The notes below the pieces were generated by a model. The model ran no database searches and was not told the origin of the DNA. It worked only from the letters and a program-made list of their open reading frames with translations. Source: Alphaproteobacteria bacterium US3C007 (GTDB lineage: Bacteria > Pseudomonadota > Alphaproteobacteria > Rhodobacterales > Rhodobacteraceae). Taken from it: DNA of 64,000 nucleotides. The position numbers were made by a program, and so were the translations under genes. The stretch is from the NCBI GenBank assembly GCA_034423775.1, contig CP139918.1, forward strand, positions 2,914,001 to 2,978,000, in the 5' to 3' direction. Shown here piece after piece: positions 53,564 to 54,943 of this stretch. Positions within the stretch are counted from its first letter, which is position 1; the number at the start of each line of letters is the position of its first letter.

Positions 53564-53640
53564 GCACCCGTAGCTCAGCTGGATAGAGCGCTGCCCTCCG
53601 AAGGCAGAGGTCAGAGGTTCGAATCCTCTCGGGTGCGCCA
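53564..53640 (+). tRNA. tRNA-Arg (anticodon CCG)
   Basis: A 77-nt cloverleaf including encoded CCA: acceptor GCACCCG/CGGGTGC, D-arm TAGCTCAGCTGGATAGAGC, anticodon stem CTGCC/GGCAG around CTCCGAA (anticodon CCG, reads CGG), and T-arm AGAGGTTCGAATCCTCT. All stems pair. Its last 16 nt form the outer end of an 81-bp inverted repeat around the recombinase gene downstream, so it is the integration target while remaining intact. Confidence 0.97.
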
Positions 53641-53705
53641 CTTTCTATTTAACAGCATGATGTAACGCACTGATCTGTAAGCAGTAATCTGTTTATGGCG
53701 ATGTG
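53625..53705 (+). repeat. Left arm of a perfect 81-bp inverted repeat (att-like, tRNA 3' end included)
   Basis: Begins CCTCTCGGGTGCGCCA inside tRNA-Arg and ends GGCGATGTG at the start codon of the recombinase gene. It is identical, as reverse complement, to 54863-54943 over all 81 bp. Sequence diverges at once on both sides of each arm. Confidence 0.95.
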
Positions 53706-54875
53706 GGGGTATATCCTGTGGTATCAAATCAATGTGAATACTTATGGCAAAAACGTGGCGTGTATTACTTCAGACGTAAGGTGCCAAATGATGTGCAGCA
53801 GCATTATGAACGTCCTCAAATAGTGATTTGTTTGAAGACGAAGAGTAAATCAGCAGCAATAAAGGCAAGTAGATCAATAGCCAGTAAACTTGATGATTTC
53901 TGGCTTCAGATGCGTATTTCAGACATGGATGTACCTGCTTCCCATTTACTGGTGAAGGGCAAGCCAAAGGATGCCTTCATATCATATGCTTCTTCACTGT
54001 CTGATGCTCTAGCCACGTATTGCAGTTTGAAAGGGGCAGATCGCACTGCTTTGTTCTTTACTGCAGCTAAGAGGAATGTTGGCTATGTGCTGGAACACTT
54101 GGGTGATCGACCCATTGATACGTACAGTTCAGCAGATGCTGCATCCTTCAGGGATTGGTTGATAGATCGTGGCCTCACTACATCGTCAATCTCTCGTATC
54201 TTTGGAACAATACGTGCTGTCATCAATCTGACCATCCAAGAACATGGATTAGATTGTCGTAATGCCTTTGCGAACATCTATCTTCCCAAAAAGGCTGAAG
54301 AGAAGCGTAAACCAATACCCAAGCATGAGATCATTCAAATACAAAAAACATGTTTGGATTTGGCTGATGAGAGAAGGCTAGTGATAGCCCTCATAAGTGA
54401 TACAGGGATGCGCTTATCTGAGGCTCTAGGGCTTGTATGGGGTGATGTACGACTAGATCACGAGTACCCACATATCAATCTGGTTGAGCATCCATGGAGA
54501 CAGCTAAAGACCTCTGGCAGTAAACGACTTGTGCCACTGGTGGGAGTATCTCTGGAGGCAGTAAAAGTCATGCATCAGCAAGGGTTTAGCACCCAGTTTC
54601 TGTTCCCTTCGTATACAAGTGCAACCAAGTGTAATGGCAACTCAGCATCAGCAGCTTTAAACAAGTGGCTGAAGCAATACACAGAGCAGGGTGTTGTACA
54701 CTCTTTCAGGCATAGCTTCAGGGATAGACTCAGAGAAGCAGAGGTGGACGTAGAGTTAACTGATCAGCTTGGTGGCTGGGCAAGCTCAAGCATTGGGCAG
54801 AGCTATGGTTCAGGGCACACATTGAAGCAGAAGTATAATGCGATGCGGAGGATAGTATTAAACACATCGCCATAA
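53703..54875 (+). CDS. Tyrosine recombinase/integrase at tRNA-Arg (DUF6538-type N-terminus)
   Basis: A 390-residue recombinase. The N-terminus (LWQKRGVYYFRRKVPNDVQQHY) matches the DUF6538-type arm domain of alphaproteobacterial phage integrases. Catalytic residues: Arg in DTGMRLSEALGLVW, His-x-x-Arg in VHSFRHSFRDRL, Gly-Trp in LGGWAS and Tyr in GQSYGSG. The start is GTG at 53703, 63 bp after the tRNA and inside the left arm of an 81-bp inverted repeat. The last codons and stop are inside the right arm. It should recombine at the tRNA 3' end. The inverted arms suggest it could invert its own gene. Confidence 0.9.
   Translation: MGVYPVVSNQCEYLWQKRGVYYFRRKVPNDVQQHYERPQIVICLKTKSKSAAIKASRSIASKLDDFWLQMRISDMDVPASHLLVKGKPKDAFISYASSLSDALATYCSLKGADRTALFFTAAKRNVGYVLEHLGDRPIDTYSSADAASFRDWLIDRGLTTSSISRIFGTIRAVINLTIQEHGLDCRNAFANIYLPKKAEEKRKPIPKHEIIQIQKTCLDLADERRLVIALISDTGMRLSEALGLVWGDVRLDHEYPHINLVEHPWRQLKTSGSKRLVPLVGVSLEAVKVMHQQGFSTQFLFPSYTSATKCNGNSASAALNKWLKQYTEQGVVHSFRHSFRDRLREAEVDVELTDQLGGWASSSIGQSYGSGHTLKQKYNAMRRIVLNTSP
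53709..53726 (+). repeat. 18-bp sequence with an inverted copy at 55038-55055
   Basis: GTATATCCTGTGGTATCA, in the first codons of the recombinase gene, recurs as its exact reverse complement at 55038-55055, outside the right arm. This second inverted pair could be a recombinase binding site (core or arm type) or a leftover of an inverted int 5' end. Confidence 0.75.
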
Positions 54876-54943
54876 ACAGATTACTGCTTACAGATCAGTG
54901 CGTTACATCATGCTGTTAAATAGAAAGTGGCGCACCCGAGAGG
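54863..54943 (-). repeat. Right arm of the perfect 81-bp inverted repeat
   Basis: The exact reverse complement of 53625-53705. It contains the last codons and stop of the recombinase gene and ends with an inverted copy of the last 16 nt of tRNA-Arg. A diverged copy in the same orientation lies at 61382-61457. Confidence 0.95.

Follow-up and report, generated by a model that had tools for sequence, protein, structure and literature searches.

A probable second, inverted docking site behind the integrase gene of a recurrent kind of bacterial genomic island

Inverted arms at the tRNA-Arg(CCG) gene

Why should an integrase gene beside a tRNA gene be enclosed by two perfect inverted copies of that tRNA gene's 3′ end? 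The question is raised by a locus of Alphaproteobacteria bacterium US3C007, whose whole genome is a single contig of 3,622,411 bases, and of which the 64,000-nucleotide stretch analysed here is referred to as the window. The integration target is a tRNA-Arg(CCG) gene (53564-53640, forward strand), identified with ARAGORN and matching Rfam RF00005 with 70.8 bits. It is followed on the same strand by int (53703-54875), an intact gene coding for a tyrosine recombinase of 390 amino acids with the Pfam domains Phage_integrase and DUF6538, on the latter of which no paper was found in the literature searched. The residues R237, H333, R336, W359, and Y368 of this protein lie at invariant alignment columns and are presumably catalytic.

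The original prediction, made from the sequence alone, described a perfect inverted repeat that encloses int and is built from the tRNA end, and this description proved exact. The left arm (53625-53705, forward strand) and the right arm (54863-54943, reverse strand) are complementary at 81 of 81 positions and lie 1157 nt apart, and the match stops at the next base both outside and inside (20 nt compared on each side). The left arm, here named S1 and attL-like, consists of the last 16 nt of the tRNA gene (the core, 53625-53640) and a 65-nt leader, and ends with the GTG start codon of int (53703-53705). The right arm, S2, consists of the inverted leader and core, with the TAA stop codon of int at 54873-54875 and the inverted 16-nt tRNA tail at 54928-54943. 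With exact 20-mers as seeds, the 81-nt arms form the longest inverted repeat of the window, the only two other pairs spanning 21 and 31 nt. With up to three mismatches allowed, the 16-nt tail occurs three times in the window against 0.29 expected, a number reached in none of 100 shuffles. A chance origin of the repeat is ruled out by the shuffles, the repeat search and the control integrases described below. An ordinary direct att repeat was also considered and rejected, the window having no direct core.

Beyond S2 lies its P arm, a non-coding stretch (54944-55425, reverse strand) with an approximate outer limit set by similarity to a tRNA-Leu element of genome G047; this similarity stops at 55129 and 55414. 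A 19-bp motif resembling an arm-type site is present in the 5′ end of int, on the P′ side (53708-53726, forward strand), where it lies on the inner side of the left arm and just outside its 81 nt. An inverted copy is found beyond the right arm, in the P arm (55038-55056, reverse strand), 113 nt before the core.

The layout in relatives and the three-site plan

A search of related genomes for the same order of tRNA gene, integrase gene and inverted tRNA tail, proposed as a check in the original prediction, found it in relatives. G047, which belongs to another genus of the same family, has a 76%-identical integrase at tRNA-Leu(CAA) with an 81-nt, 100% inverted repeat built from the Leu tail, as well as integrases at tRNA-Ser(GGA) and tRNA-Ser(TGA), each with a 121-nt, 100% inverted repeat. 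At tRNA-Phe in genome G078 the repeat matches at 76 of 79 positions, and in all the layout was seen with different arm sequences at Leu, Ser, Phe, and Thr tRNAs. In four of the five elements compared, the window included, the outer edge of the arm lies 16 nt before the end of the tRNA gene; in G078 the distance is 13 nt. With this constant edge in different tRNAs, the cognate tRNA tail copied each time in the five elements and a layout common to relatives, the arms look like attachment sites, as had been supposed. A family integrase (L093, G645:C98) with an 86-nt, 100% inverted repeat was also found beside a tRNA called SeC(tca) by ARAGORN.

In a census of the fetched loci, in which a flanking inverted repeat was counted if it was at least 40 nt long, 55 of 70 integrase rows have such a repeat and in 35 of these it is 100% identical. 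Four of the rows (L049) are pieces of two genes, which gives 68 genes, 54 with the repeat. Two paralogues sharing an identical 400-nt stretch with a kept row were left out, these being the second G047 integrase (36980 in the joined stretch), with only a 47-nt, 85% repeat, and L137, with none. A tRNA gene lies upstream on the same strand in 49 of the 70 rows, 38 of which have the repeat. Seven of the 11 others have less than 1 kb after int (L047, L130, L139, L076, L078, L083, and L079), while L121 has S2 as judged by core and P arm, L131 has a weak core match, and L045 and L142 have neither. L109 was scored as having the repeat (50 nt, 98%) despite its lost S2 core. S2 is absent, although sequence was available, from the family integrases L045, L142, L118, L138, and L137. 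The draft contigs of L144, L071, L082, L074, L117, L092, and L044 end 89-252 nt past the int match, as would be expected if inverted repeats break short-read assemblies.

The 41 control integrases, full-length proteins from outside the family in the same ten genomes and chosen by hand among the matches listed rather than drawn at random, include none with a repeat that would count in this census. Among the 11 controls with a tRNA just upstream, four carry the tail again in direct orientation and an inverted core of its own is seen in none, a lone inverted copy near L298 being part of a neighbouring family element.

A search with an alignment of 13 integrases, in genomes representing one per species, gave matches in 23 of 390 genomes of the order and 10 of 385 of the class (both at 1e-90) and in 5 of 398 of the phylum (at 1e-60), these sets overlapping. 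Among the matches listed, all family members belong to the window's own class, Alphaproteobacteria. In a tree of 46 integrases, in which two outgroup pairs sit on branches of approximately 4 changes per column, the six rows labelled as being without a normal S2 are scattered among 36 with S2 (96 of 500 shuffles give a value as low). Because of this scatter, S2 looks ancestral in the integrase family and lost at times.

Complete relatives have a third site. From the tRNA onward they have S1 (attL, +), int, S2 (an inverted P arm with core and leader, −), the cargo and S3 (attR, +). S3, which ends the element, is made up of a P arm plus a direct core and corresponds to an ordinary attR. Twelve complete + − + elements were identified, four in G047, two in G663 and one each in G000, G482, G319, G448, G340, and G829; that of G000 lies at tRNA-Arg(ACG) in the window's own genome. 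The S3 core has one or two mismatches in three of the twelve. The P arms that lie behind S2 and before S3 are inverted copies of one another, and this second inverted repeat is 100% identical in eight of the twelve elements (195 to 2265 nt including the core). The remaining four reach 98.3-99.1% when extended without gaps; aligned with gaps, a longer stretch of element A of G047 gives 95.3% over 729 nt. The repeat in the window looks like a second, inverted docking site, and the bacterial genomic islands that have one are of a recurrent kind.

Two further arrangements were observed among the relatives. L125 (G829:C1:1634100-1654099) is a tandem pair in which S3 of the first element is S1 of the second, the cores reading + − + − +. 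In L109 (G295:C1:1574800-1594799), an element reduced to approximately 2 kb, the inverted leader joins a P arm and direct core at 3240-3440 and both the cargo and the S2 core are gone; it is a deletion derivative.

The probable cargo of the window copy (55465-60920) has, according to Pfam and the open reading frames, a SnoaL-like gene, IS3-type transposase genes and genes for DUF3833, NAD epimerase, UPF0149, and FAR-17a/AIG1-like proteins. The IS3-type genes (95 and 234 amino acids; 56562-57694) overlap a GST-like ORF (55819-56727), and both of their protein sequences recur in the cargo of the tRNA-Arg(ACG) element of the same genome (L009, G000:C1:350000-364000). No protein of the primase or origin-binding type was seen in the window cargo. 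Further on, at 61359-61458 (reverse strand), lies the decayed S2 of an older element, with an int 3′ end, an inverted leader and a core-like sequence (61442-61457, three mismatches). The direct core of S3 is absent from the window with up to three mismatches allowed, and no second P arm of the element was found elsewhere in the genome at E-values up to 0.001. The window copy is best read as an element with a lost right end, which, having lost S3, is probably unable to excise and is left with S1 and S2 as its sole pair of sites. No empty site was found: none of the 28 loci scanned is a relative with the flanking gene beside the tRNA.

Arms, motif and orientation

In all seven elements compared (the window, C, A, B, and those of G319, G448, and G482), the S1 and S2 arms are 100% identical within the element. 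Between elements the arms differ, with 67.9% identity for the window and C, 93.4% for A and B, and 82.1% for G319 and G448, so that they have been homogenised element by element, the tRNA tail included. This is not universal, as some arms in the census are 90-99% identical.

In 10 of 26 elements, and not in the other 16, the best motif common to the int 5′ end and the P arm outscores every one of 60 shuffles; its distance from the core that follows is 96-126 nt in 20 of the 26. On the inner side of S2, motif scores of 5-10 fall within the range of shuffle maxima. The shared motif looks like an arm-type integrase site. It lies outside the arm in the window and in C, and S2 there is without it. 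In A, B, and D the motif is partly inside the arm and S2 keeps some of it, and for this reason the presence of one complete attP only is clear just where the motif is outside, as in the window and C. On this anatomy S2 resembles attR, and S1 is attL.

Elements A and B of G047 are collinear over the int segment (90.4%) while their cargo is inverted relative to it (89.6% over 5089 columns), the inversion running inward from the S2 core in A and from the S3 end in B. The Thr element has its cargo in the same orientation as A and opposite to B. Restriction genes also lie in opposite orientations relative to int in G448 and G319, where independent acquisition is possible. No intact int reading toward the tRNA was identified, and none of the 70 rows, many of which have less than 1 kb in this direction, has a reverse-strand tRNA within 4 kb after int. 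The decayed copy of G001:C15 is flipped, with int starting at the S2 side; in the same place, beside a bactofilin-like gene, the older remnant of the window shows the int 3′ end and G002 has the usual order.

The original prediction had gone further and proposed a self-inverting integrase module, in which the recombinase would turn its own gene between the two arms. The inverted att-like sites stand, and G001:C15 offers one decayed int that is flipped, but the proposal is only partly right since it is mainly the cargo that is found flipped in relatives and no intact int in the census is directed toward the tRNA. Its extent has likewise to be revised, as int and its two att-like arms are part of a three-site island (S1 +, S2 −, S3 +) of which S3 is missing in the window.

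The cargo is very diverse across elements and int is not. Element A encodes a protein of 1077 amino acids that matches phage primase and replication-origin-binding families, with relatives in B and Thr, and proteins of these types occur in 4 of the 12 complete elements (A directly, B and Thr via clustering, and the G663 Arg element). The G663 cargo has an AEP-type primase with DUF5906, and genes that we take to be for ABC sugar transport. C and D have a PHROG family of unknown function in common. Cargo proteins of 468 and 534 amino acids (L041:9179-10585 and L009:2061-3665) both belong to PHROG family 4756, likewise of unknown function; the product of L009:2061-3665, which has a sub-threshold RNA_pol match, may be a polymerase-like replication protein. 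Other cargo includes a type I restriction system in the element of Ruegeria sp. TM1040, a fatty-acid-hydroxylase-like protein in G829, and TPR proteins. The element of TM1040, a marine isolate, is complete and measures 12,769 bp between S1 and S3 on NC_008043.1.

Free forms were sought in plasmid, phage and IMG/VR records, and no free circle was found among those searched. At E-values up to 1e-40 a single plasmid record has a family integrase, this being the integrated copy in the megaplasmid of Ruegeria sp. TM1040, and the phage records gave two matches with 30.6% identity over 68% of the query. IMG/VR gave no match with the window protein alone and 55 loci with the alignment. The best 2 of these 55 are L146, with an 84-bp, 100% inverted repeat, and L147, in which int starts at base 13 of the locus and matches of 13-18 nt only were found.

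Mechanism, alternatives and known systems

The repeat probably represents two attachment sites of one integrative element whose excised circle flips its cargo and reintegrates with the int 5′ end first. S1 at the tRNA would be attL, with the tRNA core, the leader and the arm-type motif in the start of int, and S2 behind int, with its inverted P arm, core and leader, would be like an attR turned round. Int would excise the island by S1 × S3, giving a circle in which attP adjoins the int 5′ end and an inverted S2 lies behind int. In this circle, an exchange between attP and S2 would swap the P arms and with them flip the cargo relative to int; inversion would take place mainly here, as the circle would have a pair of att sites in inverted orientation. 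If integration uses the attP that bears the motif at the int 5′ end, this end would always come to lie at the tRNA, which would explain the constant orientation of int and the variable orientation of the cargo. While the element is integrated, an S1 × S2 exchange could turn int round, but such an exchange, being of the attL × attR type, would require an excision factor, and its reversal would bring back the usual state. We infer that Int is the agent of the exchange.

Some of these features could arise without Int. If S2 were a functionless duplicate of the att region, kept identical by gene conversion, RecA could flip the cargo; the P-arm repeats are long enough for this (195-2265 nt), homologous recombination between them could yield both the cargo inversion and the identity of the arms, and the arms are indeed homogenised. 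However, S2 is present across the whole integrase family with a core always matching the resident tRNA, and the homogenised arm is just 60-90 nt long in many elements. RecA could act in spite of either observation, and homologous recombination alone is a possible, though clearly less probable, explanation. Slightly less probable again is a phase switch in the chromosome, by which Int would control its expression through inversion of the segment from S1 to S2 that holds its own gene. It would account for the perfect inverted sites around an intact int, for the flipped int of the decayed relative, found at the same place in the chromosome, and for S1 and S2 being the only pair left in the window. 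Yet int reads away from the tRNA in the 49 of 70 rows and none has a tRNA on the other side, and such a switch needs neither the third site nor the inverted cargo of complete elements; a promoter scan at the window, with 2 sites against 4.2 expected, is uninformative.

The island could also have arisen by two separate insertions, one of a unit with int only (S1-S2) and one of a cargo unit that integrated beside it in trans, which would make S2 a mere junction. Tandem arrays such as L125, where neighbouring elements share a site, and the contrast between very diverse cargo and a uniform int would suit this, but integration of a circle at these sites should give direct and not inverted cores, and the position of S2 behind int recurs throughout the family, making such a composite improbable. 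Lastly, perfect short inverted repeats are typical of fold-back products of assembly or amplification. Such an artefact is refuted, its probability being negligible, by recurrence of the layout with other arm sequences at other tRNAs in many genomes, including the complete named megaplasmid record of Ruegeria sp. TM1040.

The attachment-site reading can be compared with known systems. The FimB/FimE systems are invertible DNA switches of tyrosine recombinases with inverted sites around the segment. As in the present islands, the flanked segment has two possible orientations; here, however, the sites are those by which a mobile element attaches, and two of them enclose the gene of the recombinase itself. 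With tRNA-targeting genomic islands there is agreement in the tyrosine integrase beside the tRNA 3′ end, in the element core that completes the tRNA and, for complete relatives, in the direct core at the far end (S3). The islands described here differ by adding a third core and P arm, inverted and directly behind int, and by having cargo between inverted P arms, while the window copy is without S3. No description of a tRNA island with an inverted third att site was found in the literature searched, which left subscription journals and bioRxiv mostly outside. The tycheposons of marine bacteria, in the part of their description available, have a tRNA at the border, a tyrosine recombinase and variable cargo (PMC10872708). 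By that description they are alike in these features and in their marine hosts, and the same part mentions no inverted third site.

In the yeast 2-micron plasmid, according to the section of the account consulted, the Flp recombinase gene lies between 599-bp inverted repeats with FRT sites (PMC3147054). The circle proposed above would likewise have a recombinase gene between inverted repeats that hold its target sites, and two segments that can be flipped; as far as that section goes, the likeness is in the layout of the proposed circle only, and these islands differ in integrating into tRNA genes. With three 'Int protein' sequences as the only matches listed, no sequence kinship with Flp is shown. 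It is conceivable, if rather doubtful, that the islands are integrating bacterial counterparts of the 2-micron plasmid, some with a replication gene in their cargo, whose circle, in which two inverted att-region copies would enclose int and nothing else, would flip during replication, amplify by double rolling circle, keep its repeats identical and reintegrate via attP at the int 5′ end.

With a conserved third, inverted site, a single integrase could be responsible for excision, inversion and integration of parts of one island. As a consequence, cargo orientation is variable and short-read assemblies tend to break at these places. If the circle does amplify in the manner of the 2-micron plasmid, the identity of repeats of up to 2.3 kb would be explained and made testable, and bacteria would possess a copy-number strategy that is best known from yeast.
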